A stretch of 64,000 bases of DNA from an uncultured Verrucomicrobiota bacterium (lineage in GTDB: Bacteria; Verrucomicrobiota; Verrucomicrobiia; Chthoniobacterales; JACTMZ01): assembly GCA_903953565.1 (NCBI GenBank), contig CAJBKE010000052.1:186001-250000 (forward strand), given 5' to 3'. A model generated the notes under the pieces. It was given only the letters and a program-made list of their open reading frames with translations, searched no databases and was not told the origin of the DNA. The position numbers and the translations under genes were made by a program. Below, one piece after another: positions 5,851 through 33,044 of this stretch. Position 1 is the stretch's first letter. The number at the start of each line of letters is the position of its first letter.

Positions 5851-8800
5851 ATGGGCTTGAAACGGCAGATTTTCTTTTTCTGTCTGCTCTTTCCGGCATT
5901 CGCGGTCCGGGGCGAGCTGCTCAACGTGCAGATTCTCGGCCACGGCGCAAATACCACGGGCGGTCCTGATGCGCCGGCTCCGGAATATCGCGGGGCAGGC
6001 GCTACCGGTGGAGAGCAGGACTATTGGAATCCGGTCCACGCCGACGCGTTTAACAAGGCTTTGGAAATCCGGCGCCCGCCGCAGTTCCTCGCCGCCGATG
6101 GCAGGACACCGCTGTCCGTGCGGATCAAGTTCCGCGGGTTCAACGGCGCGGACTACTTTCCGGCCGCGGATGGCGCGCCTGTGAACAACGCGATCCTGAA
6201 TTCCTACCTTGTGGGCGGTGCGGGTGCGGGCGTCACCATCGAAGGACTGCAACCGGGCAAGGCATACGACCTGTGGTTGTTTGCCAGCAACTCCCGCGCC
6301 GGCGCGGGCGCCAAGTTCACCGTGAATGGCGGTCCGGCAAAAGCCGCCCGAGGCTCGGCCGGCAAACCTTTTGCCGCGGGGACGGACTTTGTCGAATTCA
6401 GCGCCGTTACGGCTGACAGCGAAGGCCGGCTCAACATTGCTCTCGATCCGGCGGACGTGGCCGTCTTTCCGGGTGTCATTTTCAACGCGCTGCAGCTGAA
6501 GGGAGATTTTCCGGAGCGCAGTGACTCCGCGCGGAACGACCCGAACCGTTGGGCGCTCAAGGCTTGGTTGAAAGCGGAGGATCTTGCCAAGACCGGCTTG
6601 AAACCCGGAGATGCCGTGCGCGAATGGAAGGACTCCGGATGGGGGCTGCGTTTTGCGCCGGATGCAGCGCCCCCGATGCTTGATGAGGCTCCGGTCTACG
6701 CCGAGGTCACTGTTCCAGATTCGCCAAAAAAATATCCTGTGGTGCAGTTCAATGGTGAGGCCGGTCTGCGGCAGATCGATGCGGTCGAAGCTCGCGATGA
6801 GGAAATCACCGCTTACATCATTTTCCGCACCAAGAATTCTCCGAAATGGAAAAAGATTCTGGCCCGCCGCCACGGCGCGCTCTGCACCTACGATGGAGAT
6901 GTTTCCTCTCCGCGCGTACCCCGCGGATACCACACCGCGTATCGCGAAAACGGGCTGCGACTGGCTGCGGCCGACAAGCTGCCATTGGCCATCACCGGCC
7001 ACCAAGGCGAGTATAACCGCGACACGCGTTTCGAGGGCGAGATTGCCGAGGTCATTGTCTTTGCGCGGCGGTTCGAATCGCCGGACGACCAAGGGCTCAA
7101 CGAGGAAGTTCAAGCAATCGAAAATTATCTCAACACGAAGTATTTCAAACCCGACGACAAAGCCGCTGCGTCGGTTGCGCCTTGGCAGCCCGCACCGCGA
7201 GTTGCCGCCGCGCCTTCGCCGGCACCGGAGCCGGGCTCGCCCGACAAAGGCGAGGGGATCGGCTTGTCAGGTCCGAACATCTTTTCCATGGCCGCAGGCA
7301 GAAAGCCGGGGCCGTTCGAATATGCCGCGGGAGACGTAACCCTGCCCTTCAGCTATGAGGCAGAGGTTTCCAACCGTCCGCGGCCGAAGCCGCTCGACTT
7401 TCCCGGCCAGCTGAATCCGGATTGTTGCCACGCCTTCGTGCGCATGGACGGCGAGTTGTGGATGTTCCGCATCGACTTCATTGCCGACAAGGGTCGCATT
7501 GGCCGCTTCAAAGGTCCGGACATCGACAACATGACCAAGCTGGAGGACGGCACCTATCCGCCGGAAGTCGGCCTCGGGTGGTTACTCGGCGGACTTTGGT
7601 ATGACCAAGCCGAGCGGAAACTCTATGCGCCTGTCCACATCGAACAGGAAGGCAACTACCGTTTCCATCCCGCATGGGGTTGGTTCTCCCGCAAAATCGG
7701 CCTCGCCACCAGCGTGGACAAGGGCAAGACATGGAAATACGAGGGCGATATCATCACGCCCGAGACCTATTACTACACGCGCGACGCTTACAAATTTTCC
7801 GGGGGAGACACCTCCAACGGGATCGCGGACTTCGGTTTCTATGTCGATACCCGCGGCGGCTATTTTTACATTTATCCTCTGGAGAGCTGGTATCCCAAGG
7901 GCGAGTGGGGCGCGCGTTGGGCGCCACGCGTGGCCCGTTGCGCTATCTCGGACAAGATGGCTCCGGGGAAATGGAGTTATTTCTACGAGGGCAAATGGGA
8001 CCAGCCGGCGCTGGGCGGAAAGTCGAGCATCGTCGGCGCGAGCGCTTTCTGGGGTATCCTCTACAGCACGAAGCTCAAGCGCTACATCAGCATCGCACCT
8101 TACAACAAAGATCCGTGGTGGCCGCCTTTCGGCTACAACGTGGATGGAGTGATCATCGGAACCTGCACCGACCTGTCGAAGCAGGACTGGGTGTGGGGAC
8201 ATTTCCCCGAGGGCATGCACGGCTTCATGAAGCTCTTCAATGCCGGGGGCAACGACATCGAAACCTGCGACGACCGGCTGCGGTTTTACTCGTTCTTTGC
8301 CGACAACTCTTACCAGAACCTCGACATCACACTGTTTGACAAACCCATGAGCGTGAATCAGCCGACGCCGCGATTCGGGTTCCAGCCGAACCCCGAGTCC
8401 TCCGACCCGATCCTTTCGCGCCGCACCAAGATTGTCGGATCCGCCAGCTCCGAAATGAAGTATTCCGGCGAGTGGAAGGTGAAGGAAAATCCGAAGGAAT
8501 ATTACGAAGGCCGCTTGAACGAGAGCAGCACGGCCGGCAGCAGTGTCGAATTTTCGTTCACCGGTGCCGACATCTACTGGCGCGCCCTGCGATCCCCGGA
8601 GAGCGGAAAGGCGGATGTCTACATCGACGGGGAACTATCCAAGACCGTCGATTGCTACAGTCCCCGTGCCACGGTCAGCGAAAACTTTGTTTTCGTGAAA
8701 ACCGGGCTCGATCCCGACAAGCCGCACACGATCAAAGTGGTGGTCAAGGGCGAGCAACATCCGAAGTCGAAGAGGAGCGCCATCGGGCACATGGCCTTCG

Positions 8801-9720
8801 AGTTCTCGGCGGACAGCAGTCGCGCGTCGTTCGGCTTCAGCAGCATCATGGGCAAGAACAACTGGCGTTACCTCGAGCGCGCGGGTGACAAAGAGAGCCG
8901 GTTGCGCTTCCTGGCAAGCGATGAAGTATTCACCCGCGATTGGCAGGGCGAGAAAGAAGTGCGGATCGGCGACAACTACCAGATTGCCGAGCCCGGTCGC
9001 GACGCCGTGCGGCAGTGGGTGGCACCCCACACGGGCACCGTCCGCGTCGAAGGTCGTGTCACCGTGGAACCTTCCGCGCTCGCCTCCGCCAGTCTGTTGA
9101 AAAATTCCGAGAAGCTTTGGCACGCGGAAGCGGACGCCAAGGATGCTGCTGCCGCCCACGACCTGACTGTCGAGGTGGCCCAAGGCGACACGCTCGACTT
9201 CGTCGTTGCCGCCACGGGAGACCAAGCAGGCAAATTGGTCTGGGATCCGGTCATCACCTACACCCGCAGCGAGCCCGCCGTGGAGAAACTAAATCCACCC
9301 GGTGAGGAAAACCTCGCGCTCGGCAAATACGCGCGTTCCAAATTGCTGTCCTTTGCCACCCAGCCGTTCAACGCGGTTGATGAAGACCCCCGTTCGGCCT
9401 TTGCCATCTATGCCGATGACCGCATCGCCTCCGGGGACGATTGGCTGCAGATCGACTTGGAGCGTCCGTGCACCATTGACCGCTACGTGCTTGTCTCGAC
9501 CCCGCCGGTCGCGGAATGGCGTCCCTCCAATTTCTCAATGCAGAAAAGTGATGACGGCTTCACCTGGACGGATGTGGAAAAAGTTGCCGACAACAAAGAG
9601 GATCGTGTCGACCGCAGCGTGCCGCCCTTCACCGCGCGCTATGTCCGGCTCTATTTGCCGGAGGGAAAACCGTTTTATCTCAACGAACTTGAGCTGTATC
9701 ACGGCGGTCCGGCGAAATAG
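5851..9720 (+). CDS. Large secreted multidomain protein with beta-propeller-like core and F5/8C-type C-terminus
   Basis: A 1289-residue protein starting MGLKRQIFFFCLLFPAFAVRG, a signal peptide; cleavage is likely near residue 20. Next comes a beta-rich domain (about 25-225), a LamG/concanavalin-like region (about 235-440), then a central region of about 330 residues holding a clear sialidase-type Asp box, SVDKGKTW at 621-628. After that are two carbohydrate-binding-like beta domains (about 865-1140) and a discoidin-type F5/8C module (about 1154-1287, ending RYVRLYLPEGKPFYLNELEL). It starts 14 bases after the ADC-like gene. Likely exported and glycan-binding or glycan-cleaving; no catalytic family can be named with confidence. 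Confidence 0.75.
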   Translation: MGLKRQIFFFCLLFPAFAVRGELLNVQILGHGANTTGGPDAPAPEYRGAGATGGEQDYWNPVHADAFNKALEIRRPPQFLAADGRTPLSVRIKFRGFNGADYFPAADGAPVNNAILNSYLVGGAGAGVTIEGLQPGKAYDLWLFASNSRAGAGAKFTVNGGPAKAARGSAGKPFAAGTDFVEFSAVTADSEGRLNIALDPADVAVFPGVIFNALQLKGDFPERSDSARNDPNRWALKAWLKAEDLAKTGLKPGDAVREWKDSGWGLRFAPDAAPPMLDEAPVYAEVTVPDSPKKYPVVQFNGEAGLRQIDAVEARDEEITAYIIFRTKNSPKWKKILARRHGALCTYDGDVSSPRVPRGYHTAYRENGLRLAAADKLPLAITGHQGEYNRDTRFEGEIAEVIVFARRFESPDDQGLNEEVQAIENYLNTKYFKPDDKAAASVAPWQPAPRVAAAPSPAPEPGSPDKGEGIGLSGPNIFSMAAGRKPGPFEYAAGDVTLPFSYEAEVSNRPRPKPLDFPGQLNPDCCHAFVRMDGELWMFRIDFIADKGRIGRFKGPDIDNMTKLEDGTYPPEVGLGWLLGGLWYDQAERKLYAPVHIEQEGNYRFHPAWGWFSRKIGLATSVDKGKTWKYEGDIITPETYYYTRDAYKFSGGDTSNGIADFGFYVDTRGGYFYIYPLESWYPKGEWGARWAPRVARCAISDKMAPGKWSYFYEGKWDQPALGGKSSIVGASAFWGILYSTKLKRYISIAPYNKDPWWPPFGYNVDGVIIGTCTDLSKQDWVWGHFPEGMHGFMKLFNAGGNDIETCDDRLRFYSFFADNSYQNLDITLFDKPMSVNQPTPRFGFQPNPESSDPILSRRTKIVGSASSEMKYSGEWKVKENPKEYYEGRLNESSTAGSSVEFSFTGADIYWRALRSPESGKADVYIDGELSKTVDCYSPRATVSENFVFVKTGLDPDKPHTIKVVVKGEQHPKSKRSAIGHMAFEFSADSSRASFGFSSIMGKNNWRYLERAGDKESRLRFLASDEVFTRDWQGEKEVRIGDNYQIAEPGRDAVRQWVAPHTGTVRVEGRVTVEPSALASASLLKNSEKLWHAEADAKDAAAAHDLTVEVAQGDTLDFVVAATGDQAGKLVWDPVITYTRSEPAVEKLNPPGEENLALGKYARSKLLSFATQPFNAVDEDPRSAFAIYADDRIASGDDWLQIDLERPCTIDRYVLVSTPPVAEWRPSNFSMQKSDDGFTWTDVEKVADNKEDRVDRSVPPFTARYVRLYLPEGKPFYLNELELYHGGPAK

Positions 9721-9747
9721 CCGGCTCGAGGCCGTGCTCAGTCACTG

Positions 9748-10548
9748 CTACCACTCCACGGAGCCGCCGGCGTTCATGGCCAAGTTACCTCCGTCCACCG
9801 GAAGCAGAACTCCGGTGACCATCGAAGCAGCTCCGGAGGCGAGGAAGATGACCGGTCCGACGACCTCCTCCGGTTCCCCGAAGCGCCCGATGGGAATGCC
9901 GCGCGTCACCGTTTTTAAAAGTTCCGAGGTCTCGGGGCTGGCTTTTTGCGCGGCCCACATGGAATTCATGAACTGGCAGGGCAGGATGGCGTTAACGCGG
10001 ATACCGTGACGGGCCCACGCGAAGGCGAGTTCGCGCGTGAGTTGGCCGACGCCGGCCTTGGCCACTCCATAAGGCATTGCGCCGCGTCCCAAGGCATTCT
10101 CTCCGCCGATGGATCCGAAGTTCACGATGCTCCCCGGACGTTTCGCCGCGATCATCCGGCGGCCCGCTTCGCGGCAGGTGAGGAAAAAGCATTTGAGGAT
10201 GCCATCCTGAAGTCCTTGAAAGGTTTCCAGCGTAACATCCTGCGGTTGGTGTCGCGCAATGGGACACGCCACCGCATTGACCAGAATGTCGACCGGGCCC
10301 AGTTCCGCCTCCGCCTTGTCGAAAAGCGTGGCCACATCGGCTTCGCGGGCGGAGTCACAGGCAATGCCTGCCGCACGTCCGCCCCCGCGGGCGATTTCAT
10401 CACGGATCCTGTCCGCACTTTCCTGCTGAAGATCAGCCACCGCCACCTTCGCCCCGGCCGCCGCTAATCCCTTCGCGACGGCCGACCCAAGCGACCCCGC
10501 ACCTCCGGTGACGATGGCGGTGCGGCCAGTGAGGTCAAAAAGTTTCAT
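9748..10548 (-). CDS. SDR-family oxidoreductase
   Basis: A 266-residue short-chain dehydrogenase with TGGAGSLG at residues 14-21, Ser146, and catalytic Tyr160-x3-Lys164. The AVADLQQ segment after the second strand has an Asp, which usually indicates NAD preference. It ends PVDGGNLAMNAGG, typical of gluconate-5-dehydrogenase-like sugar SDRs. It lies 15 bases downstream of an LDH2-type dehydrogenase on the same strand, so the two probably form an operon, and it converges with the large secreted protein. Likely oxidises or reduces a sugar acid; the substrate is unknown. Confidence 0.9.
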   Translation of the reverse strand: MKLFDLTGRTAIVTGGAGSLGSAVAKGLAAAGAKVAVADLQQESADRIRDEIARGGGRAAGIACDSAREADVATLFDKAEAELGPVDILVNAVACPIARHQPQDVTLETFQGLQDGILKCFFLTCREAGRRMIAAKRPGSIVNFGSIGGENALGRGAMPYGVAKAGVGQLTRELAFAWARHGIRVNAILPCQFMNSMWAAQKASPETSELLKTVTRGIPIGRFGEPEEVVGPVIFLASGAASMVTGVLLPVDGGNLAMNAGGSVEW

Positions 10549-10563
10549 CGGGCTTCGCGCGGG

Positions 10564-11631
10564 TTATCCATAGATGGTTTCTAACGGAATCCCGGTATCG
10601 AGCGAAAGTCCTTCGAGTCGGACCATCACGTGATCGGGCAGCATCATCCCGTGTTCGAGGGCAGCCACGCGCGAGTCCCACTCCAGTTCGCCCGGAAGAT
10701 AGATCCGCTCGGCACCCTTGGCGCGCGGGGCGTTGCGGATGAAGCGGACGAGTTCGTCCATGCGGTTGCGGAAATCCGTGGCATCGAGATAGTGCGAGAC
10801 GTCTATGGCGAGGAACGAATGCGATTGATTCACCGGGGTGGGGTCCTCGAGAACCCAGCTCACTACCTGCTCACCGAACGCGCCGCCCGCGATCACGCCG
10901 GTCAGGACTTCGATGAGAAGACCGATGCCGTAGCCCTTATGCCCCGCCATGGGTAAAAGCGCGCCGACCGCCGGATAGCCCTCTGGATTCGTGGTGGGAA
11001 GACCTTCCTTGTCGATAATCCACCCTTCGGGGATGGCTTTTCCGAGTTCGCGCAACGCGTAGATTTTGCTTGCGGCAACCACGCTGGTTGCGATGTCCAT
11101 CATCACCGTAGGCTCTTTGTTTGTTGGGATCGCGTAGCCGATGGGGTTGGTGCCAAGGAGCGGCACGCGGGCGCCGGGAACGGTCACTCCCGGATCCACA
11201 TTGGTGAAACTCATGCCGATCATGCCCTGCTCGGCCGCAAGGTGGGCGTAGTAACCCGCACCTCCGTAGTGTCCGCTATTACGCACCGCGACAAAGGCAA
11301 TGCCGGTTTTTCGCGCCTTGGCCACAGCCAATTCCATGGCCTGCACCGAGACCACGGCGGGCATGGTCTGGCGGGCGTCGATGAGGGCCGAGCCCGGACC
11401 ATCGCGCTCGATGACCGGCTCGTCGGTCAGGCTCATCCGTCCGTCGCGGTAGTTTTTGAGCAGCCCCCGGATCTGCTTGCTGCCGTGCGTGTAGACACCC
11501 CAAGTGTCGTTGGTGACAAAAACACGCGCGGTTGTCCGCGCGTCGGCTTCCGGGAGTCCGTTTGTCTGCATGGCGGCAACCAGAAAACCCTCGAGGTTTT
11601 CCGGGCGAACAGGTGATTTGCAGGTTGTCAT
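10564..11631 (-). CDS. LDH2/malate dehydrogenase-like (YlbC/YiaK) NAD(P)-dependent oxidoreductase
   Basis: A 355-residue member of the LDH2 family, which includes 2,3-diketo-L-gulonate reductase, ureidoglycolate dehydrogenase and sulfolactate dehydrogenase. The segment VRNSGHYGGAGYYA near residue 120 holds the conserved His, and GTNPIGYAIPT and AGHKGYGIGLLIEVL follow in the family order. First gene of a two-gene minus-strand operon with the SDR at 9748-10548, and divergent from the AraC regulator at 11792. In a locus with sugar transport and lactonase-like genes a keto-sugar-acid reductase is the simplest role. Confidence 0.88.
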   Translation of the reverse strand: MTTCKSPVRPENLEGFLVAAMQTNGLPEADARTTARVFVTNDTWGVYTHGSKQIRGLLKNYRDGRMSLTDEPVIERDGPGSALIDARQTMPAVVSVQAMELAVAKARKTGIAFVAVRNSGHYGGAGYYAHLAAEQGMIGMSFTNVDPGVTVPGARVPLLGTNPIGYAIPTNKEPTVMMDIATSVVAASKIYALRELGKAIPEGWIIDKEGLPTTNPEGYPAVGALLPMAGHKGYGIGLLIEVLTGVIAGGAFGEQVVSWVLEDPTPVNQSHSFLAIDVSHYLDATDFRNRMDELVRFIRNAPRAKGAERIYLPGELEWDSRVAALEHGMMLPDHVMVRLEGLSLDTGIPLETIYG

Positions 11632-11791
11632 GTCGTGCCGTCGGTCGAGGGTCCAACTAGATCATGATTGCCCGCCGCGCGCTTACTCTTTTCGCGCAGA
11701 TCAGCGACGTTTTTGAATCCGCGACTTGTGGTTTCTTTGCCGATGCGCGACTGATACGCAGTGTTTCGAACCACTCCTGTCTCCGCGCCTG

Positions 11792-12769
11792 ATGAAAAAA
11801 TCCGCCCAAACTAAGAGCCCCTCGGTCAAAGATCTGGCATGGCTGGGGAGTGTGCGCGAAGCGCGGCTGCCCATCAGTTTTTCCCGTCCGCTGTGGGGGC
11901 GTGTCGTCAGGTTCGACAAAGGCTCGGGCTCGCTTCCTAGGCCGGGCGTCCAATTTCCGGAGCAGCACCCGCATTGCGAACTGAACATGGTCCTTGCCGG
12001 AACGTGCACGCAATACGTGAACTCGGAAAAGGTTTCGCGTCGGCCGAAGGACGTGATGCTGCTCGGGCCGGCCACGCCGCATTATCCGATTTTGGAGAGT
12101 TTGCCGCAGGAATCCGTATCCGTATATTTTTCGCCGGTCCTGCTGCTGGAAATCGCCCCGAAGCGCGACGGGGCCAGGGCTCTGGCCCGCTTCACCATGC
12201 CATCCCGGATCGAGGATCGCGTCGTTCGCGTGAAGGCGTCCGTTGCAGATAAAATGGCATCCCTCCTTGTGGAGTTGGTCGCGGAACTTCATTCCGAGCG
12301 CGCGTGGAGTGAATTCCGGACACGATCCCTGCTGCTGGACGTTCTCCTCGAATTTTTCCGTTGGGAGGATTCCGTAGGACGGGAATACCAACTCCGCGAA
12401 CACGATGTGAATTGGTCGATCATCCAGCAAACGCTGGACTACATGCATCAAAACTTTGCCGAGCCGATCTACGTCCGCGATCTGGCGCGCGCCGTGGGCC
12501 TAAGTCTGAGCCGCTTGCAGTCCATGTTTCGCAGCGCCCTCGGCATGAGCTGCATCCAGTATTTGCGCGCCTACCGGATCTCGCAGGCTGCATCGATGCT
12601 TTGCATGCCCGACGCCCGCGTCACGGAGGTGGCATTCAATGTGGGCTTCGAGACCCTCAGCCATTTCAACACGTCCTTCCATGCGCTCATGGGTATGGCG
12701 CCGACCCGCTACGCGGATGGGATGAGGCGCGGCAGGAAGCACGCGTCGCCCCCGAAGAAGAAGCGGTAG
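11792..12769 (+). CDS. AraC-family transcriptional regulator
   Basis: A 325-residue regulator. The N-terminal half is a cupin-type effector domain with HPHCELNMVLAGTCTQYV (about residues 55-75); the C-terminal 100 residues hold the two AraC helix-turn-helix units, VRDLARAVGLSLSRLQSMFR and RVTEVAFNVGFETLSHFNTSF. The ATG at 11792 is chosen because codons upstream do not fit the family. It is divergent from the LDH2-type gene with 160 bases between, so it most likely senses a sugar and controls that operon. It converges with the P450 gene. Confidence 0.87.
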   Translation: MKKSAQTKSPSVKDLAWLGSVREARLPISFSRPLWGRVVRFDKGSGSLPRPGVQFPEQHPHCELNMVLAGTCTQYVNSEKVSRRPKDVMLLGPATPHYPILESLPQESVSVYFSPVLLLEIAPKRDGARALARFTMPSRIEDRVVRVKASVADKMASLLVELVAELHSERAWSEFRTRSLLLDVLLEFFRWEDSVGREYQLREHDVNWSIIQQTLDYMHQNFAEPIYVRDLARAVGLSLSRLQSMFRSALGMSCIQYLRAYRISQAASMLCMPDARVTEVAFNVGFETLSHFNTSFHALMGMAPTRYADGMRRGRKHASPPKKKR

Positions 12770-12833
12770 AACAGGAATTTCTCCCGGACGCCGGCTGTCT
12801 TGCTTGCCGGGGATCGGACCACAAACGCCCGGC

Positions 12834-14069
12834 TCAAACTGAAACCGGCAGCTTCCTGAGCATACGCGAGTTCCGCTTCTCCACATCCCAATCGGGATTC
12901 GGATCGACTAGCGCAATGTTAGGGAACATTTCGAAAAGCGTTTTAAGGGCGATGTTAGCCTCCGCTCTGGCCAGCGTTGCTCCCACGCAGAAATGGATGC
13001 CCTGACCGAAAGCAAGGTGCCTGTTGTTTTTGCGAAAGATGTCGAAAGTTTCGGGGTTCTCGAAATGCGCAGGGTCGCGGTTCGCCGCGTTGAGCATTTG
13101 GAACACGATCTCGCCCTTTTTCAGCAGCTTGCCGTCCAATTCAAAATCGCGCTTCATCAGGCGCGGCTGACGCGAAACCGGACTCTCATAGCGGAGCACT
13201 TCCTCGATGGCCTGCGGCAGCAGATCCCAATCGGCGCGAATTTTGGCCAGAGCCTCCGGATGCGTCAGCAAGGTGAAGACGCTGCTCCCGAGGAGGGAGG
13301 TTGTCGTTTCGTGCCCGGCGACCAGCAAAGTCACGCAGGTATTGATGAGCTCGGCGACGGAGAGCCTGTCGCCTTCGGACTCCGCCTGCACCAGCTTGGT
13401 TAGCAGGTCATCCTTCGGATTCGTGCGCTTTTCCTCGATCTGCACCATTAGGTAATCCCTCATCTCAATCAGAGATTCTTGGGCTTGGAGTAGCACGGCC
13501 TCCGGGGGCTTATTGATACCCTGGAAGGCGAGGAGATCGTCAGCCCACTTGCGAAAACGGTGGCGGTCGGCCGTGGGCGCTCCGAGCATTTCGGCAATGA
13601 CCGTGGCGGGAAGGGGAATGGCCAAGTCTCTGACGATGTCGATGTCGCCCCGCGCTGACGCCTCCTTGAGAAGGTCGGTGACAATTTCTTTGATCCGTGG
13701 CTTGAGCGTTTCGATCACCCGGGGGGTGAACGCTTTCGTGACAAGTGAGCGCAGACGGGTGTGGTCTGGCGGGTCGGAATGAAGCAGTCCTTTCGTCCGA
13801 TAATGCGCCTCGAATTTGGCCAACCTCTCCCGGGACGCGCCGGTCAGATGTTCCACCGATTGCGCGAGTCTCCCTTCGTTGGAAAAACTAGAGGTCTCCT
13901 TGAAGGAGACGACGATGTCGTCGTAGCGGGTGAGGATCCAGCCGCCAATCCCGTCGCTCCAGAGAACCGGGTCATCCGTCCGCATTTCACAGAACACCTC
14001 GTAGGGGTCGGCGACAAAAGCCGGGGAATTGATCACGTTTTCGAATCGGGATGTTGCGTGGGTATTCAT
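12834..14069 (-). CDS. Cytochrome P450 (bacterial class I type)
   Basis: A 411-residue soluble P450. It has the I-helix oxygen-activation motif AGHETTT, the K-helix ExxR as [14 protein letters not shown], and the heme-thiolate loop [15 protein letters not shown] with Cys361. No membrane anchor is present, so it is a cytoplasmic class I enzyme that needs a ferredoxin. A single-cluster ferredoxin gene lies 1.2 kb away at 15278, on the opposite strand. A start 15 codons upstream (14114) is possible; 14069 ([11 protein letters not shown]) fits the family better. It follows the pseudopilin gene on the same strand. Substrate unknown. Confidence 0.93.
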
Positions 14070-14117
14070 ATTACAAAATTTAGGTTGTTCTACATGTGCG
14101 GCGGGACACGTCATTCA

Positions 14118-14912
14118 TCACCAAGGGAATCCGTCCAGACCACCGAAGAACTGCCGGGCCCTCTCTTTGCCGCCATCGTAGGCGTTGGCCCGCCACTCTT
14201 TCCAAGTCATCGAACGGGCACTTCCGTCGAAAAAGACGACGTTGCCGACATCGGCGTGGAAGGTCGTGCCGAGCGAATCGATCGAATCCGGATTGTGATA
14301 CCCGAAGCGCACGATGTCGTTGTCATACTGCCAGGAGTTTTTGCCAGACTCTTCAATCAGCATTACCGTGCCGGCTGGCGGGGTCCGAAGCGCAGCAAGG
14401 GGAAAGTCAATATTGGCGTCGTTCACGTTGCGCCGAAGCGAAGCTCCTGCCTCTCCGTTCAGGGCGTAGGTGCAGCCCGCGTAGCGTCCGGTGTAGCCCC
14501 AGGGTGTGTATCCGAGAGCCTTGATGTCCCTCTTGGCGGGACACACGAAAGCGCTCTCGCTGGTGACGTAGCCTCCCCGCATGAGGAGTCCGCATCTCAC
14601 GTCGCCGTGGCTAGGCTCTCTCGGCTTGAAAGGCGGTGGGGGGGTGGCCCGGTCCGGAGGCTTGGCGTAGGAAGGATCGTTGTAAGCCCATCCCCAACCC
14701 GGAAACATGTTGTTGTTGTCTGCGGTATATTGGAGGAGCCCGGCCGAGAGCGTGCGCATGTTGCCAAGACATGTTGCCTTGTGCCCATGTTCAATCGCCC
14801 GGCTCACAGCCGGCACCGCCACAGCAGCGAGGACGGCGATGATGGCTATAACAATGAGCAATTCCACAAGCGAGAATGCATGGACAGAGTTTTCGTTTTG
14901 CGGTGAAAACAT
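14118..14912 (-). CDS. Type II secretion-like pseudopilin (prepilin-type N-terminus)
   Basis: A 264-residue protein with an N-methylation signal: after a short leader comes FSLVELLIVIAIIAVLAAV (residues 13-31), with Glu at mature position 5. The body holds NMRTLSAGLLQYTADNNNMFPG and ends in a DxxxHxDVGNVVFFDG-like segment, the pattern of the H-X9-DG pseudopilins that are abundant as scattered single genes in Verrucomicrobiota and Planctomycetes. The protein would be cleaved by a prepilin peptidase and held in the inner membrane or assembled. No secretion genes are nearby. The P450 gene follows 48 bases downstream on the same strand, with no obvious functional link. Confidence 0.87.
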   Translation of the reverse strand: MFSPQNENSVHAFSLVELLIVIAIIAVLAAVAVPAVSRAIEHGHKATCLGNMRTLSAGLLQYTADNNNMFPGWGWAYNDPSYAKPPDRATPPPPFKPREPSHGDVRCGLLMRGGYVTSESAFVCPAKRDIKALGYTPWGYTGRYAGCTYALNGEAGASLRRNVNDANIDFPLAALRTPPAGTVMLIEESGKNSWQYDNDIVRFGYHNPDSIDSLGTTFHADVGNVVFFDGSARSMTWKEWRANAYDGGKERARQFFGGLDGFPW

Positions 14913-15277
14913 GGGGGGTGGACGGCGATTCGTTTCCCGGAAACTCTACGTTCCTCGGAGGGCGGATTGCTGTGCATGTTGTGGCGCTAAATATCGCACG
15001 CGTTTTTGTTCCCGCACTGCTTTTTGAACCGTTTACATTCTTTTTGTGGAACCTTCGGGTCCCCATCTCCGGCCGAACCGTGCTGCGGTGTTTGGGCGTT
15101 TAGAAATCACGCATGCAAATTGCGAAAACGAATAATTCTGCCGGAAAAGCAATAGCGGTCGGCAGGGCGATGTACGATTGTTTGTGCTAGTCTATGGAGA
15201 GCCGGACGCAAGCGAGCACACTACGGAGAGTATTTCAAAAAAAGCGGACGAGGCGGAAACTGAACCGAAATTAAACT
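14913..15277. promoter_or_regulatory. Divergent intergenic region with copy 2 of the GAAAACGAAT motif
   Basis: No gene is visible in these 365 bases between the pseudopilin and the ferredoxin. At 15122-15156 it holds the second copy of the motif seen at 835-870. At 15028-15036 it holds ACCGTTTAC, a 9-mer also present at 2965-2973 upstream of the RhaT-like gene, in both cases 100-120 bases before a minus-strand start. Both could be regulator sites; neither is proven. Confidence 0.35.
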
Positions 15278-15511
15278 ATGGCTGAAGTCGAAAATAAATA
15301 CGCTCAAAACGCCCCCGGTCCGTTTTACGTCGATGATCAGTGCATCGATTGTGACCTCTGCCGGGAAACAGCCCCGGCCAACTTTACGCGCTCGGAAGAC
15401 GGCGGACACTCTTATGTGTACAAACAGCCCGACACACCTGAAGAGCGAGCCAAATGCGTTGAGGCCATGGAAGGCTGTCCGGTCGAAGCGATCGGCGACA
15501 ACGGCGGCTGA
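15278..15511 (+). CDS. Single-cluster 4Fe-4S ferredoxin
   Basis: A 77-residue acidic protein with Cys22-x2-Cys25-x2-Cys28 and a distant Cys67-Pro, which would ligate one [4Fe-4S] cluster (Cys60 is an extra cysteine). This is the Fer4_13/Fer4_15 type of small monocluster ferredoxin, often used as electron donor for bacterial P450s and other oxidoreductases. The P450 at 12834-14069 is the obvious candidate partner, though it is on the other strand and 1.2 kb away. No ferredoxin reductase is in the window. Confidence 0.9.
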   Translation: MAEVENKYAQNAPGPFYVDDQCIDCDLCRETAPANFTRSEDGGHSYVYKQPDTPEERAKCVEAMEGCPVEAIGDNGG

Positions 15512-15598
15512 GATAGCCTGATGCTTGCGGCGAAGTGCCGCCGCCTGGCGCAATTAGCTGGCGGACATCTTCTCGTCCGGGTGAATACGCTGCGACCG

Positions 15599-15836
15599 AT
15601 GAAGCGCCAGATTAATAGTCTACTCCTTGCCGGGGGGCGGAGCTCGCGCATGGGGCGCGACAAGGCGTCTTTGGTCATTGTTGAAGGCGAATTGAGTCAA
15701 GCCGGGCGCGCATTGGGGCTTTTGCGGCAATTTTGCGCGGAGACCTATATCTCGCCGCGCGACGGACAGGATGTGCCGCTAGGGGCTGAGGGCGTGCTGG
15801 TGCTTCGCGACGATCCGGGGGCGAAAATGCAAGTAA
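15599..15836 (+). pseudogene. mobA: mobA-like molybdenum cofactor guanylyltransferase, 5' fragment
   Basis: From ATG 15599 the product begins MKRQINSLLLAGGRSSRMGRDK, the nucleotide-binding loop of MobA/MocA-type transferases. About 75 residues follow the family up to LRDDPGAK, the point where normal proteins continue for another 110 residues or more. Beyond about 15830 the reading frame is unrelated to MobA, and another frame is homologous to a molybdopterin oxidoreductase. The gene therefore lost its 3' two thirds and cannot make working MobA. The ending point is approximate. Confidence 0.7.
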
Positions 15837-16496
15837 CTTTCGACCAGCCGCAATCGTCCGGCTTCGGAGCACCTTAAGTCCGAACCCGCCATCGTGGCCG
15901 GACTCGGCAAAGCTCTTTTTCCCGGCGGTCCGGTCGATTGGGACGCGCTCGTCGGAGATTACGACCGTATCCGCGAGCGCATCGAAGCGGTCATCCCGGG
16001 TTTTGCGGACTACAACGCGAAGATCCGGCAGCCGAGTGGATTCCAACTGCGGAACGCAGCATCGCATCGTGAATGGAAAACGGCCACTGGTCGCGCCAAC
16101 TTCATCGTTAATCCTTTGCCTGATCTTTCCGTTGCGCCCGGTCGCCTGCGTCTGATGAACCTGCGCTCGCACAACCAATATAACACGACCATCTACGGTA
16201 GCGGGGACCGCTACCGCGGGATCGAGGGCGAGCGGCGCGTGCTTTTCCTCAATCCGGTGGATATGCGCGAGCTGGGCTTGGATGAAAAGTCATTCGCCAC
16301 CATCCGCAGCCACGCGGCCGACGGCCGAGAGCGTCGTGCTCCGGGATTCCGTCCGGTGTTCTATGACATCTCGCGCGGCTGCGCCGCTGCCTATTATCCC
16401 GAAACCAATGTTCTTGTCGGCATCGACGAGCACGCGGTGACAAGTCTTACTCCGATGTCCAAATTCATCGAGGTCACGCTCAAGAAGGAAAGCTGA
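15837..16496 (+). pseudogene. FdhF/YdeP-type molybdopterin oxidoreductase, 3' fragment
   Basis: About 219 residues match the C-terminal part of YdeP/FdhF-type formate-dehydrogenase-like alpha subunits: RPASEHLKSEPAIVAGL, WKTATGRANFIV, LMNLRSHNQYNTTIYG, and the molydopterin-dinucleotide binding domain through DISRGCAAAYYPETNVLV. The frame is open only from 15837 (a stop precedes it at 15834), so about 550 N-terminal residues with the active site are missing. It directly follows the mobA fragment on the same strand, as if one deletion removed the 3' end of mobA and the 5' end of fdhF, genes that are often neighbours. Confidence 0.75.
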
Positions 16497-16511
16497 CACC
16501 GCGCGCGGAAG

Positions 16512-17345
16512 CTACGCGGTCAGTTTTTTCCAGATCTTGTCGGTCTCGACCCGCAGGACTTTGGCGTCCTCCCAGCTGTTGGGCAGGGTGGTCAAGTTGT
16601 AGCCGCTCATCACGGGGCCCATTTCCGGGACGGCGAAGATGTCCCGGTCGGCGTTTTGCTTTGCCGAGAGCCAGCATCTGAGCACGGCCTCGACGAAAAC
16701 AAGATACTCCTTCACTTCCTGCGTGAGATTCCCGCGTCCGTCGGTCACCGGCACTTGACAATGGTGTCCGTTGAACGGACGGAAATGGAATTGTTGCGCC
16801 CGCTGGATGAGATCGGGGCGGACGATGAGCCGTTCGGCGTAGTTGTCGGGCCGCAGATGTTTGACCACCGCGAGATGCGAGAAATCCCAGGTGATGGGGA
16901 ACAATTCGCCGGTGACTTTTTGGTAGGCGTCGGCCAAGGCATAAGTTTTCTCCGGAGTTTCCGTGCAGGTGTCGCGGTGGATTTCGATGCTGGGCTCCAC
17001 GCCCTGACGGCGACCTTCCTGCATGATGAGCAGAGTGAGTCCGAGCGCTTCGGGGGTGGGGGTGTCATCCTTGGCCAGTTGCACATTGATGTGATGCGCG
17101 CCTTCGTCCTTGTTTGCCTTGATTGCCTCGGAGAACTCGGAGGCTTTGCCCGAGTAGACGTAGCCGATCACGGTCATGCCGTGCTTCTTGGCTAGTTCGC
17201 CGAGTCCGGGACGCGGGCTGCCGGCGACCCCGGTGAACCCCGCTTTTTTCGCGTCGACGATTTTATCCTCGAGCGACCACTCAGCCTGCTCGGATGGATA
17301 ATGATTGATCGACCAAAGCGCGGCGATGTGGTGTAGCCGGCTCAC
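16512..17345 (-). CDS. Sugar phosphate isomerase/epimerase-like TIM-barrel protein
   Basis: A 277-residue protein of the AP-endonuclease-2/xylose-isomerase-like fold. Metal-site residues are visible in SIEIHRDT, DFSHLAVVKHL and the HFRPFNGHHCQ segment. GTG at 17345 is chosen as start because it overlaps the stop of the upstream 6PGDH-like fragment (GTGA) and the homology begins at SRLHHIAALWSINHYPSE; codons further upstream belong to the other gene. Such proteins isomerise or epimerise sugars, inositols or keto-acids. The upstream 6PGDH-like gene would have been an operon partner before it was broken. Confidence 0.82.
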   Translation of the reverse strand: MSRLHHIAALWSINHYPSEQAEWSLEDKIVDAKKAGFTGVAGSPRPGLGELAKKHGMTVIGYVYSGKASEFSEAIKANKDEGAHHINVQLAKDDTPTPEALGLTLLIMQEGRRQGVEPSIEIHRDTCTETPEKTYALADAYQKVTGELFPITWDFSHLAVVKHLRPDNYAERLIVRPDLIQRAQQFHFRPFNGHHCQVPVTDGRGNLTQEVKEYLVFVEAVLRCWLSAKQNADRDIFAVPEMGPVMSGYNLTTLPNSWEDAKVLRVETDKIWKKLTA

Positions 17346-17809
17346 TTGTTTTGTTTTCGTGTTTTCGGTCCGCGGCCTTTGAAGGTGAGTTCGGCGGTGC
17401 CGGATTTGTCCAGTTCGCAGAGTCCACCCGCTACCATCTTGCGATATTGGCGGTAGGTGGCGGCGGCGAGGGGAAGTTCGAGTTTGCCCAAGGCGAGGGC
17501 GGTGCCGCTGTCCTTGGCCGCGTGCACCGCGCTGAAGAAGCACGAGTGGTCGCGGTTGACCATGTCCTCGCCATCGGTGGCCAGCACGCGCGAGTTGGCG
17601 CCGGTCTGGCCGAACACTTCCATCAGCGTTTCGAGGTCGAGCCCGAGTCCTTCGGCTAGTCCGGCCGTGTTTATGTTCATCACCATGTTGACCAGCGCCT
17701 TCACTTTTGCCGCGCTGCCGGCCGGGCCGATATAGCGCATGAGTTTGCCCTCGTCGCTCAGCTTGGCGAGAGCCGGGGCAACGCGATCGAAGGTGGCGCG
17801 GTCACCGCC
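17342..17809 (-). pseudogene. 6PGDH/3-hydroxyisobutyrate dehydrogenase-like, 3' fragment
   Basis: About 155 residues match the C-terminal half of beta-hydroxyacid dehydrogenases: GGDRATFDRVAP, then MRYIGPAGSAAKVKALVNM with the substrate-binding Lys, and HAAKDSGTALALGK. The N-terminal NAD-binding Rossmann domain (about 140 residues with GxGxMG) is absent. Instead the sequence upstream at 17810-17925 encodes the beginning of an unrelated HTH protein in another frame. A truncated product from the ATG at 17740 might still be made, but without the NAD domain it could not be a dehydrogenase. Confidence 0.72.
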
Positions 17810-17925
17810 GCGACGGTTTCGGCGGAGAGTCCGGCTCGCTGTGCGAGTTGCTCGTCGGTGAGGCCCGAGCCGCGGAAAGCCTTGCCGAGGATGTCGTGGA
17901 AATTATCTTCGAGAGGAATTTTCAC
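17803..17925 (-). pseudogene. HTH domain of an HTH-MBL protein, 5' fragment
   Basis: From GTG 17925 the product reads (V)KIPLEDNFHDILGKAFRG and continues for about 41 residues as a helix-turn-helix segment. It is clearly related to the N-terminus of the intact HTH-metallo-hydrolase at 32235-33044 ([17 protein letters not shown]). After residue 41 the similarity ends and the frame stops about 20 codons later inside 6PGDH-like sequence. It is a paralogue's 5' end joined by a deletion or rearrangement to the 6PGDH-like 3' fragment. Confidence 0.65.
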
Positions 17926-18249
17926 AAGCGATACATTGCAGCATAGTGGCGGTAAGATATAAAGAGCAACGCATGCGCGTCATGAAGTTGGCGAGTAGCA
18001 AAGCAGAGACGTCAGAAGACTGCGCGGCATTTCCGACATAATGCGACCACGCGGAAAAGTGAGCCACCTATTTTGCGGTGATTCCGCTTGGTTTCGGGCT
18101 CGGATGCCGTGTCATCAGTCTCGCCCTTGATTCTCCTTCCGCTGAGCGCATAGCTGCGAGGTCTTTGCCTTCTCACGGCATGCCGAAAAACCCGTATTTT
18201 TCGCCTAAAAACGAAAGTGCTGTCCCAGCCTGTGTGACATTATTGTTTC
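17926..18249. other. Intergenic region before the PEP-CTERM array
   Basis: No gene found in 324 bases. It must hold the promoter of the first PEP-CTERM gene. A 10-base palindrome CGGCATGCCG occurs at about 18176-18185, followed by an AT-rich stretch with TTTTTCGCCTAAAAACG. No Shine-Dalgarno sequence precedes ATG 18250. Confidence 0.4.
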
Positions 18250-19905
18250 ATGCAACTGTCCCACCGTGCGCTAACCGCCGCCATTTGTCTTGCCGCTGGT
18301 GTCTCCGCGACAACTTCCTTCGCGCAGGTTACCAACACCAATTGGAGCGCGTTCGACGACTTTTACGTCAATGTCCCGGCGACTGGTGGTGGCGGCGACT
18401 ACACGCAATCCACATGGATCGCCAACGCCGGAACGTGGCCGTACGATACCGGCCTAACGAATCCGAATGCGTGGGGCTACGCCGGTGTGAATCTAAACGG
18501 CTTTGGATTTCCGACCAGCGTTGGAACCTATGTGTCGCCCTCCAGTGGTGGAGTCTATTCTTTTACGTCAGGCGGAATTTATGCCGGCGCAGGGGTGAGC
18601 TATTATCTGGGAGGTAGCAACTACTACATTGGCTACAATAGCACCTACGGTCCTGTCTCTCAGATTGCCAAATACACCCAGGAATGGTTTGGCGGCACGC
18701 CGAACTACACGAACAACCCCAGCGGCATCAACGATAAGTATCTTTGGATCCAGAGCACTGGCCTGTCTCCTTCCACGGACGGTTTGGGATCCATGGTGAC
18801 GTGGACCGCTCCGACGTCCGGAACGTACACGTTCACCGGTTCCTACGTTAACGGCAACTACGGCGACGTCTCTACTGATTTCGCCATCGTGGACAGCAAG
18901 AACAACGTTGCGTTGCCCAAGCAGACTTTAGCGCCGAATTCTTCCGTCAATACCTACACTTTCAATAGAGTCTATCAGGCAGGCGATGTCGTTCAATTCC
19001 AAGTCGGCACGGCTGCTGCCGCTCAAGGAAGTCCGCTCGGTCTCGAGGCCAACATCAGCCGCGTCACCCAGTCTATTGGAACCACCTGGAACGCCGCCAC
19101 GGACTTCTATCTCACTCCAACGGCATCCGGTTGGACCGGCGCGACCAGTCCATCAACCGCCGGAGCGGCTTTTGGCTACTACGCTGCCAACGTCAACGGC
19201 AGCGGCTATGCTAGTCAGATTGGCTCCTTTTTTACCCCGCAGTTCTCAGGAAGCGGCAGCCAGAGCCTTTACCAGTATTCGAGCATGGCTCCCATAGGGG
19301 CCGGCACTGTTGTCGGCGCCCCTGGTTGGGCAAATATTGGCACTGGCACTACGGACGGGGCGGGCTTCGCTTACTACTCCGACACTTTAGGGTGGGGGAC
19401 CAGTCTCGGCAAATATGACACGCCATGGTTCGGTGGGGCTCCTGGGTTATCCCAAGGCTTGACCAACCTGATCTGGATGCAACCCGGTTGGCTGAGCGGC
19501 TCAGAAGTCGAAGGAATCGCTCCGGTCGTTACGTGGACGGCTCCGGAATCGGGCTACTACACGTTGAGTGGGCAGTTCGTCTCCGGAAATCAGCCCGGCA
19601 ATGGCGCTTCGGTGGCCATTGTCGCCGGATTCAACAACACTCAATCCGCCCTCGAGCTGGCTAGAACTGTCTTGAACAACAATAGTTTCCAGTCTTTCGA
19701 TTTCACGAGGTTTTACGAAGCAGGCACTGTGGTTCAGTTTCAAGCAGGCAGTTCTTTTACGACTGGAAATTCTGTGGGACTGCAACTCAATATCACCGCC
19801 GTTCCTGAGCCTTCGACCATCATTGCGGCCATCGGCTTGCTCGGCCTGATGCTCTGGCCTGCCCGGCGCTATTTGTGGCGGAATTCGGATAAAAATACCG
19901 TCTGA
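18250..19905 (+). CDS. PEP-CTERM sorted surface protein with two repeat domains
   Basis: A 551-residue exported protein: signal peptide to about residue 25 (cleavage near SFA-QV), then two homologous domains of about 240 residues (28-265 and 270-515). Each opens with a W.A..DFY segment and has a WTAP...YT.SG beta strand about 100 residues from its end. The C-terminus is VPEPSTIIAAIGLLGLML followed by basic ARRYLWR, the PEP-CTERM sorting signal that is cut by an exosortase. No exosortase gene is in the window. It is first of three tandem paralogues and probably a surface or extracellular-matrix component. Confidence 0.88.
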   Translation: MQLSHRALTAAICLAAGVSATTSFAQVTNTNWSAFDDFYVNVPATGGGGDYTQSTWIANAGTWPYDTGLTNPNAWGYAGVNLNGFGFPTSVGTYVSPSSGGVYSFTSGGIYAGAGVSYYLGGSNYYIGYNSTYGPVSQIAKYTQEWFGGTPNYTNNPSGINDKYLWIQSTGLSPSTDGLGSMVTWTAPTSGTYTFTGSYVNGNYGDVSTDFAIVDSKNNVALPKQTLAPNSSVNTYTFNRVYQAGDVVQFQVGTAAAAQGSPLGLEANISRVTQSIGTTWNAATDFYLTPTASGWTGATSPSTAGAAFGYYAANVNGSGYASQIGSFFTPQFSGSGSQSLYQYSSMAPIGAGTVVGAPGWANIGTGTTDGAGFAYYSDTLGWGTSLGKYDTPWFGGAPGLSQGLTNLIWMQPGWLSGSEVEGIAPVVTWTAPESGYYTLSGQFVSGNQPGNGASVAIVAGFNNTQSALELARTVLNNNSFQSFDFTRFYEAGTVVQFQAGSSFTTGNSVGLQLNITAVPEPSTIIAAIGLLGLMLWPARRYLWRNSDKNTV

Positions 19906-19924
19906 CTCCCTCGAGGAAACTAAT

Positions 19925-20794
19925 ATGAGCCCTTCCCCCCGCAGGTTCATCGTCGCCAAGCTTCTTGCAGCTGCGTTGTTGATGTCTTCCGCTCGCGCCG
20001 CACTCATCTACAGCGCCTACGACGATTTTTACTTGGCACCCACCGCGGCCGGATGGGGTGGCGCTACCTCACCATCGGCCACGGGAGCGGCGTGGGGTTA
20101 CTACATGGGCAATGTCAACGGCTTCGGGCTTCCGACCGGCGTTGGAAGCTACTTGACTTCGGAAATCTACAGATTCTCCAGCGTCAATCCTTTGGGTGTA
20201 GGCGGTCCGGTCTACAGCACTTCCTTTTGGGACGCGACCGGCGGGGCCGGCTTCGCGCGTTATCTTGACAACGTTGCTTGGGGAGCGCCGAGCGACCTCC
20301 ATGCCAGTCTGGGCAGTTACAGCACGCCTTGGTTCGGCGGGGCTCCGGGACTTTCCCAAGGACTGACCAATCTGATCTGGATGCAGTCGGTCTGGCTCGG
20401 GGGCGGGGGGTCTGAAGGAATTGCCTCGATGTTGATTTGGAAAGCTCCCGCCGCGGGAATCTACAATTTTTCCGGGCTTTTTGTCTCCGGGGACCAAGCC
20501 GCGAACAGCGCGGCAGTAGCCATCGTGAGTCCGGGCGGCGCAAACCTTTCCAGAACTGTCTTGGCCAACAACGACGTTCAGTCTTTCAGCTTCCAGTCGT
20601 CTTACAACGCAGGTGACGTGGTTCAGTTCCAAGTCGGCAACAATTTTAGCATCGGCAATGCGGTGGGATTGCAACTGGAGATCACCGCCGCCACCGTTCC
20701 CGAGCCCTCGACCTTGTTCTCGGCTCTTGGCCTCGTCGGTTTCGCGCTTGCCCGGTGCTATCTGCGGCGCAAGTTCAAAATCAAGATCGCCTGA
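19925..20794 (+). CDS. PEP-CTERM surface protein, single repeat domain
   Basis: A 289-residue paralogue of the preceding gene. It has a signal peptide to about residue 25 (SARA-AL), one copy of the repeat domain opening YDDFYLAP, the strongly conserved core TPWFGGAPGLSQGLTNLIW near residue 135, and the PEP-CTERM tail VPEPSTLFSALGLVGFALARCYLRRK. GAGGAAA sits 8 bases before ATG 19925 and only 19 bases separate it from the previous stop, so the two are probably co-transcribed. Function unknown; the domain is beta-rich with no catalytic motif visible. Confidence 0.86.
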   Translation: MSPSPRRFIVAKLLAAALLMSSARAALIYSAYDDFYLAPTAAGWGGATSPSATGAAWGYYMGNVNGFGLPTGVGSYLTSEIYRFSSVNPLGVGGPVYSTSFWDATGGAGFARYLDNVAWGAPSDLHASLGSYSTPWFGGAPGLSQGLTNLIWMQSVWLGGGGSEGIASMLIWKAPAAGIYNFSGLFVSGDQAANSAAVAIVSPGGANLSRTVLANNDVQSFSFQSSYNAGDVVQFQVGNNFSIGNAVGLQLEITAATVPEPSTLFSALGLVGFALARCYLRRKFKIKIA

Positions 20795-20915
20795 TTTTCG
20801 CGCGCGGGCCCAAGCTGCCTGACGCAGGGCTGCTCGTCCGGGCTCCCACCAAAAAAAGAAGAATTTCAGTCGAAAAAAGACAGCTTGCGGCACGGTTCCG
20901 TGCAATTACTTTCCC

Positions 20916-21755
20916 GTGATCAATCCCCTCCGCTCCATTCTCCCTGCCCTGCTTTTAGTTGTAGCCGCATTGCCGGCCATTGGCCGCGCGCAAATGGTTA
21001 CCAGTTGGAATGCTTACAATGACTTTTATCTCTCTCCCACCGCGGGATCGTGGGGTGGCGCGACCTCACCATCCGCCGCAGGACAGGCTTGGGGTTATTA
21101 CATGGGCAATGTCAATGGCAGCGGATTCCCAGTGAACGTCGGAAGCTATCTGACTTCTGGTCAGATTTACAAATATACCTCCTTCAATCCCGCGGGTGCT
21201 TCGGATGGGACGGTCTATGGCACTACTTTGTGGGATAACACCGGCGGGGCTGGCTTCGCGCGTTATCAAGACACTCTTAGCTGGGGGACCAGTCTAGGCA
21301 GCTATACAACGCCATGGTTTGGCGGAGCTCCGGGGAATTCCCAAGGCTTAACCAATCTGATTTGGCTGCAGTCTGGCTGGCTTAGTGGCCCCTCCTCTGA
21401 AGGAATAGCGTCGGTGCTCACTTGGACCGCCCCCGCGGCTGGAACCTACAGCTTTTCCGGGCTATTCGTATCCGGCGACCAACCTGCCAATAGCGCCGCA
21501 GTGGCCATCGTCAGCTCGGGCGGAGCGGATCTCGCCAGAACAGTAATGGTCAACAACAGCGTCCAAAACTTTAGTTTTACCAACACTTACAATCTCGGCG
21601 ACACGGTTCAGTTCCAAGTTGGCAATAATTTCAGCACCGGCAGCGCCGTTGGTTTGCAACTCGAAGTTGTCCCCGAGCCCTCGACCGTTTCCCTCGCCGT
21701 CTTCGGATTGGCCGCCGCGGCCCTCTACGGATTCCGGCGGAAATACCTGCTTTGA
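20916..21755 (+). CDS. PEP-CTERM surface protein, single repeat domain
   Basis: A 279-residue third paralogue, starting at GTG 20916 with a hydrophobic signal peptide (LPALLLVVAALPAIGRA). The domain repeats the same order: YNDFYLSP, TPWFGGAPGNSQGLTNLIW, GTYSFSGLFVSGDQPANSAAV, VQFQVGNNFS, then VPEPSTVSLAVFGLAAAALYGFRRK. It is closer to the 19925 gene than to the domains of the 18250 gene by eye, suggesting recent tandem duplication. The 121-base gap upstream may contain its own promoter. Likely exosortase substrate; function unknown. Confidence 0.86.
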   Translation: MINPLRSILPALLLVVAALPAIGRAQMVTSWNAYNDFYLSPTAGSWGGATSPSAAGQAWGYYMGNVNGSGFPVNVGSYLTSGQIYKYTSFNPAGASDGTVYGTTLWDNTGGAGFARYQDTLSWGTSLGSYTTPWFGGAPGNSQGLTNLIWLQSGWLSGPSSEGIASVLTWTAPAAGTYSFSGLFVSGDQPANSAAVAIVSSGGADLARTVMVNNSVQNFSFTNTYNLGDTVQFQVGNNFSTGSAVGLQLEVVPEPSTVSLAVFGLAAAALYGFRRKYLL

Positions 21756-32234: not shown

Positions 32235-33044
32235 CTAAGAAGCGAAAAAGGGATTGTTCGTTTTTTCCTGCGCCACGGTGGTGAGGGGGCCATGCCCGGG
32301 GCAGAGAATGGTATCGTCGCGCAGGCCGAGGATTTCCTGGCGGATGGTGGCCAAGGTTTCGATGTAGTCGCCGCGCACGCCGCCGACGGATCCGGCGAAA
32401 AGCGCGTCGCCCACGATCGCCGCCTGCAGGACGGGGCCTTCAATCACGAAGGTGCTGCCGCCGGCACTGTGCCCCGGAGTCAGTCGTGTGCGGATAAAAT
32501 GCTCTCCCGCATTGAAGAGGTCGCCCGGTCGAAAGGTGTTGGTGCCGCGCACCGGTTCGCGCTCGGACGACCAGGCCTCCACCCTGAGTTCACGTTTGAG
32601 CGTGGCCAATGCGTGGATGTGGTCGGCGTGGCTGTGCGTCAGGAAAATGGCCACGACATTGAGGTCGGATGATCGGACCGCCTCGAGAAGGGGCGCCGCG
32701 TCCGCTCCGGTGTCAAAGATGGCGGCATCGCCGCTCTTGGGGTCGCACACGATGTAGGCATTCACCGTCATGTCGCCGAAAGGGGTGGTGGCAACGGTGA
32801 TGGAAGGCGGGCGATCGACGGCCGGTTGGTATTCGCCGCCGGCGAGACGTTGCAGGGCATCGGGGTTGAGTTTGAGCGCGGCGGCGAGGGCACGGGCGGA
32901 GTCGGCCGCGAATTCGCCGGCGAGGAGCCGGGTAACGGCGGCCGTGTCCAATCCGGCGCGTGCGGCCGCGGCATGGACCGATAATTTCTGTCCGCGCAGG
33001 GCTTTGCCCAGAACGTCGGTGAAGTTGTCTTCCAGCGGGATCAT
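32235..33044 (-). CDS. HTH-metallo-beta-lactamase fusion (glyoxalase II-like hydrolase)
   Basis: A 269-residue protein. Residues 1-70 are an XRE-like helix-turn-helix segment ([17 protein letters not shown]...ARAGLDTAAVTRLLAGEF); residues 85-269 are an MBL hydrolase with THSHADHIHA, the LTPGHSAGG histidine, DALFAGSVGG and CPGHGPLTT. The MBL part is like persulfide dioxygenase/glyoxalase II. Its ATG overlaps the stop of the upstream ABC gene (ATGA), so the two are coupled. A broken paralogue of the HTH part is at 17803-17925. The HTH may be a pseudo-regulatory or substrate-recognition domain; DNA binding is not proven. Confidence 0.83.
   Translation of the reverse strand: MIPLEDNFTDVLGKALRGQKLSVHAAAARAGLDTAAVTRLLAGEFAADSARALAAALKLNPDALQRLAGGEYQPAVDRPPSITVATTPFGDMTVNAYIVCDPKSGDAAIFDTGADAAPLLEAVRSSDLNVVAIFLTHSHADHIHALATLKRELRVEAWSSEREPVRGTNTFRPGDLFNAGEHFIRTRLTPGHSAGGSTFVIEGPVLQAAIVGDALFAGSVGGVRGDYIETLATIRQEILGLRDDTILCPGHGPLTTVAQEKTNNPFFAS

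Follow-up and report, generated by a model that had tools for sequence, protein, structure and literature searches.

Probable deletion scar of a mobA–fdhF operon in a Verrucomicrobiota draft genome

Results

Fragments of mobA and fdhF lie joined on one strand

The window, by which we mean the whole 64,000-nucleotide stretch analysed here (G000:C52:186001-250000), belongs to a 2.86-Mb draft genome of 70 contigs with a completeness of 95.68%, denoted G000. Within 0.9 kb of it, a 5′ fragment of mobA (molybdenum cofactor guanylyltransferase) runs into a 3′ fragment of an fdhF/ydeP-type molybdoenzyme gene on the same strand, as the earlier note had described from the sequence alone; PF12804, TIGR01701 and tblastn matches show its coordinates for the two pieces to be right (Table 1).

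Table 1. Genes, fragments and signals in and around the joint (window positions)
Feature	Position	Strand	Basis or remark
4Fe-4S ferredoxin gene, upstream context	15278-15511	+	PF13370, E 2.3e-22
Candidate degenerate moaC 3′ remnant, just 5′ of the mobA start	15520-15598	+	tile and shuffle alignments; suggestive
mobA 5′ fragment	15599-~15820	+	~74 codons; PF12804 match, tblastn
Putative MOSC/FdhD fusion gene scrap encoding DPGAKMQVTF, in frame with mobA	15812-15841	+	peptide match in relatives
TAA stop in the fdhF frame, just 5′ of the fdhF match	15834-15836	+	sequence
fdhF/ydeP-type molybdoenzyme 3′ fragment, residues 527-744, out of frame with mobA	15840-16496	+	TIGR01701, tblastn, DNA identity
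Convergent neighbour, 277 aa, apparently whole	16512-17345	-	open frame
3-Hydroxyisobutyrate-dehydrogenase-like (HIBADH-like) protein, 3′ half	17809-17363	-	residues 141-295, 65%; PF14833
Metallo-beta-lactamase-fold (MBL-fold) hydrolase, 5′ end	17925-17830	-	residues 3-34, 50%

The mobA frame spans 15599-15877 and encodes 92 aa, with its stop at 15875-15877. MobA proteins carry an N-terminal NTP transferase motif of the consensus type LLAGGxSxRMGxDK, and the frame holds such a motif (LLAGGRSSRMGRDK). PF12804 (MobA-like NTP transferase) matches residues 8-73 (E 9.2e-10; 39.4 bits, cut-off 27), covering profile positions 2-67 of 160 and thus not a whole domain, and every NCBIfam MobA model scores below its cut-off. 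By tblastn, the piece is 66% identical at the amino acid level to residues 12-87 of the MobA-MoaD frame of a congener, G005.

The fdhF piece is similarly partial at the family level. TIGR01701 (FdhF/YdeP) aligns with 15837-16493 over positions 524-743 of 744 (E 5.2e-67), and the score of 226.6 bits falls short of the curated cut-off of 582.15 for the 744-position model; PF01568 (C-terminal molybdopterin dinucleotide-binding domain) gives 24.8-25 bits (E 2e-5) against a cut-off of 26.8. Residues 527-744 of G005 FdhF map to 15840-16493 with 88% amino acid identity (tblastn), and at the DNA level the piece is 82-83% identical to L047 and L048, which we took, by match, as contigs of the congeners G004 and G005. 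The 218 codons are open, giving 654 bases without a frameshift or stop. Because the mobA and fdhF pieces occupy different reading frames of the + strand, each with a stop, no MobA-FdhF fusion protein is expected.

Congeners hold the full-length genes in the same order

Alignment to relatives, which the earlier note had proposed, yielded full-length, colinear mobA, MOSC/FdhD and fdhF genes in both G004 and G005. G004 has mobA, MOSC/FdhD, fdhF; in G005, moeA and moaC come first, followed by a mobA-moaD fusion, moaE, the MOSC/FdhD fusion and fdhF, with a divergent moaA. The related contigs L050 and L051 run moeA, moaC, mobA-moaD, moaE, MOSC/FdhD, fdhF, with moaA on the opposite strand between MOSC/FdhD and fdhF. 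On L052, a UBA3063 contig, mobA-moaD (from the contig edge), moaE and MOSC/FdhD are followed by an fdhF match in two pieces. The pieces of that match (L052:2388-4326) do not share a reading frame, and the match stops at residue 691; this fdhF may be decaying too, or the assembly may be of low quality.

The view that mobA and fdhF are normally neighbours therefore does not hold, since an FdhD/MOSC gene lies between them in relatives, together with moaD and moaE in some. Nor does the proposed deletion size of about 2 kb: compared with G004 the window lacks 545 + 2672 bases (3217, or 3.2 kb), and compared with G005 it lacks 1218 + 2669 bases (3887, or 3.9 kb). We searched scar DNA against 38 genomes including G000, keeping at most the ten best candidates per genome, and the chimeric mobA-fdhF layout, which might have turned up in homologues as a stable gene, was absent among the candidates scored in the 37 other genomes.

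A putative scrap of the middle gene lies at the joint

After the mobA residues LRD, the frame at the joint reads DDPGAKMQVTF. MobA in relatives continues differently (DAPGAQGPLAG in G005, DEPAAEGPLAG in G004), and the MOSC/FdhD protein reads DPGAKSQITF (G005), DPGAKTQVTF (G004), DPNSKTQITL (L050) and DPNSKTQVTL (L051) at the matching site, with KMQVTF in L052, identical to the window. The best match of the 10-residue joint peptide fell on this same MOSC site in 5/5 relatives, and 0, 0, 2, 3 and 1 of 1000 shuffles reached its score. A 34-base word (15809-15842) matched the MOSC site at 25, 23, 20 and 22 of 34 positions in L047, L048, L050 and L051, against 17, 17, 19 and 17 at its best position in the mobA block; in L052, whose MOSC site borders on unknown bases, that site scored 18, as did two other places. 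The case for the scrap is carried by the 10-residue peptide and the 34-base word, both of which include bases common to the mobA side, overlapped by the first bases of the scrap.

Shorter probes were less discriminating. For the 6-residue scrap core, 156 and 109 of 1000 shuffles reached the score in L050 and L051, a weak match. By DNA identity alone, the 20-base core was not significant in 4/5 relatives (96, 300, 300 and 101 of 300 random window words reached the score in L047, L048, L050 and L051, and the best site in L047 was not the MOSC one); in L052, 14 of 300 did so. A degenerate scrap-core pattern, designed after the match was seen, had a single occurrence each in L043 and the window, and none in 200 and 100 shuffles.

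From these matches we conclude that a putative MOSC/FdhD scrap sits between the mobA and fdhF pieces, which implies two junctions. The earlier proposal of a deletion within the mobA...fdhF operon thus stands, given the full-length colinear genes of G004 and G005, but that of a single event of about 2 kb between neighbours does not. The mobA-MOSC joint falls in GAyCCGGGGGC, which G004 and G005 carry on the MOSC side and which has a similar counterpart on the mobA side, so a microhomology-guided deletion is plausible there.

The fdhF piece shows little sign of drift

Against five relatives, the pairwise dN/dS of the fdhF piece was 0.078-0.101, and full-length fdhF genes over the same codons gave 0.105-0.157, ratios that are rough because several dS values exceed 1. 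Neither a raised dN/dS nor a nonsynonymous excess, and hence no relaxed selection, was seen on the piece. Private changes (nonsynonymous:synonymous) numbered 10:32 for the window, 7:12 for L047 and 8:11 for L048 in a four-sequence pool, and 8:15, 6:5 and 6:7, respectively, in a six-sequence pool.

For site conservation we used 24 homologues (28 loci given; L019 was without a hit, the duplicates L003-L005 were dropped, and L017 and L018 aligned only partly). Beyond the first four codons, the window piece has no change at strictly invariant sites, and at least one such change occurs in five other sequences of the set. Within the first four codons, G529S is private compared with 22/22. Three further changes, G592S, T633N and P704S, had appeared as private changes at sites invariant among 11 homologues and were set aside when the larger set removed that invariance (of the 24, 15 retain G592, 22 T633 and 22 P704), so site changes say little for decay of the piece.

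The fdhF piece therefore shows no long neutral drift: either the loss was recent or the piece has been kept. We favour a recent loss because cofactor genes were not found (below); the low dN/dS fits this without proving it.

Cofactor genes are missing from the draft and patchy in the genus

Profile searches of the 95.7%-complete G000 draft, which followed up the suggestion to look for other moa/moe genes, found no MoaA over the cut-off and no MoeA_N, MoaC, MoCoBD_1 or Oxidored_molyb. The best TIGR02666 match reached 31 bits (E 1.8e-7), compared with a cut-off of 284 bits. The sole PF00384 protein is a 629-aa frame on contig C55, which we take to be NuoG. When DNA of the G005 cluster was compared with G000, the scar was the only match among the best 27 of 94 candidates. 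The proposed loss of both cofactor finishing and the enzyme is thus supported, and it reaches beyond the locus.

Cofactor (Moco) genes are patchy across the genus. Among its 11 genomes including G000, several of them drafts less than 90% complete, MoaA over the curated cut-off was found in 5, MoeA_N in 5, MoaC in 6 and MoCoBD_1 in 5, all four together in 5/11 (G004, G005, G006, G008 and G010). The sixth MoaC is a piece at a contig end in G007, which is also the one genome of the 11 with Oxidored_molyb. Since the genes are this patchy (5/11), the scar may offer a workable case for timing pathway loss. One possible reading, which we hold tentatively and with more doubt than confidence, is that molybdenum use is being lost in parallel within the genus and that G000 is caught just after the loss, with the pathway gone and a piece of its last enzyme barely decayed; if so, a comparison of sister species could reveal in what order and how fast the pathway was lost.

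Two deletions best account for the locus

With two congeners holding full-length mobA, MOSC/FdhD and fdhF in order, we consider 15599-16496 very probably a pseudogene scar of the mobA...fdhF operon, left by two deletions. In the ancestral operon mobA, perhaps accompanied by moaD and moaE, would have been followed by MOSC/FdhD and then by fdhF. One deletion would have fused mobA in frame to MOSC/FdhD where the two share a short stretch of similarity near GAyCCGGGGGC, and another would have joined MOSC/FdhD, some 30 bases on, to fdhF codon 527 out of frame. Between them, the two events would account for the loss of most of mobA, of MOSC/FdhD apart from ~30 bases, and of codons 1-526 of the 744 in fdhF, leaving pieces that are presumably non-functional.

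A scrap of only ~20-30 bases could instead be templated filler copied in during repair, with a single rearrangement taking mobA to fdhF in one step. We regard this as improbable, because the scrap stands in ancestral order, in frame with mobA and at the similar GAyCCGGGGGC, as two plain deletions predict. Even less likely is that the cell still produces the C-terminal part of FdhF (200 aa, starting at a possible GTG at 15894) and retains it as a domain standing on its own, as the 654 bases free of frameshifts and stops and the low pairwise dN/dS might suggest. With MoaA over the cut-off, MoeA_N and MoaC not found, no molybdopterin is expected for such a domain; its layout did not recur among the ten or fewer best candidates in each of 37 other genomes, and a consensus promoter scan gave no + strand site here. 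That scan (15150-16700) returned one promoter-like site, on the minus strand, and one terminator-like site, and was uninformative relative to shuffles. It is likewise very unlikely that unrelated reads were joined in one contig of this 70-contig draft while the living cell has the whole operon, since mis-joining would hardly produce two joins in colinear order and on the right strand with a middle-gene scrap between them, and since an assembly that is 95.7% complete also lacks MoaA over the cut-off, MoeA_N and MoaC.

Deletions in bacterial operons leave pseudogene scars. The locus resembles these in that the 5′ part of one gene has been joined to the 3′ part of another farther downstream, on the same strand and out of frame, and differs from the usual kind in the survival of a putative middle-gene scrap of ~30 bases, which points to two junctions. 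The two-deletion scar thus looks like a known kind of locus, an ordinary but well-resolved gene-loss fossil within 0.9 kb, and its chimeric layout can be explained as ordinary gene loss.

The available part of PMC6147048 describes loss of molybdenum use and ‘orphan molybdoprotein’ organisms. As in those organisms, to judge from that part, G000 has a molybdoenzyme match without a complete cofactor pathway; unlike theirs, its match covers just a C-terminal part and so represents a remnant, no longer a whole enzyme. A profile search can therefore report a molybdoenzyme in an organism apparently unable to make the cofactor when the hit is a remnant. Our literature search, including the available parts of PMC5673642 and PMC6147048, found no mention of the locus, which does not imply that it is unpublished.

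A second scar and the flanking genes

The convergent neighbour on the fdhF side gave no hit in Pfam and NCBIfam searches. By tblastn it also lies beside fdhF in two UBA3063 contigs, L049 (residues 133-283, 62%) and L052 (residues 199-282, 69%, at a contig end), which suggests that the scar occupies the original fdhF site. DNA of 16450-18200 had no match in G004 or G005, so the neighbour is not common to these congeners. In L049, only residues 133-283 were matched (L049:2566-3027), next to a frame that we take to be glutamate-synthase-like; the neighbour may be truncated there.

A second scar of this type lies 0.9 kb from the mobA-fdhF scar, at 17363-17925, where the 5′ end of the MBL-fold hydrolase gene is joined to the 3′ half of the HIBADH-like gene. 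L050 and L051 carry both genes open and side by side, ~1.1-1.2 kb downstream of fdhF. Given this second scar, the stretch seems to have lost genes through deletion more than once. A full-length relative of the hydrolase lies elsewhere in the window (32238-33041; 46% over residues 5-273 of 273).

On the mobA side, a moaC remnant at 15520-15598 is possible, on evidence that is suggestive and that we do not press as a claim. The best of 8222 overlapping tiles was moaC of L050 (score 42), with other tiles at 41 and 39. Shuffles reached the moaC score in 98, 2, 13 and 248 of 300 local alignments (L048, L050, L051 and L047) and in 24, 0 and 1 of 1000 end-free alignments (L048, L050 and L051), L050 and L051 being closely related to each other; 95, 0 and 1 of 2994 random window words reached it. 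MAFFT places 15520-15598 differently from the moaC-remnant alignment.

Farther upstream, the ferredoxin gene has a match in nine of the other ten genus genomes (one each) and none in G009, among the candidates scored. In G010 and G005 it shares contig and strand with mobA and lies ~22 and ~29 kb upstream of that gene, respectively; as a mark of a larger deletion it is neither supported nor excluded. The ferredoxin aside, window positions 8000-15600 matched the genus only in short, scattered stretches. A second, similar 4Fe-4S ferredoxin gene lies at G000:C33:73552-73779. On the far side of the second scar, three consecutive, similar open frames (18250-21755) have ends that we take to be PEP-CTERM-like.
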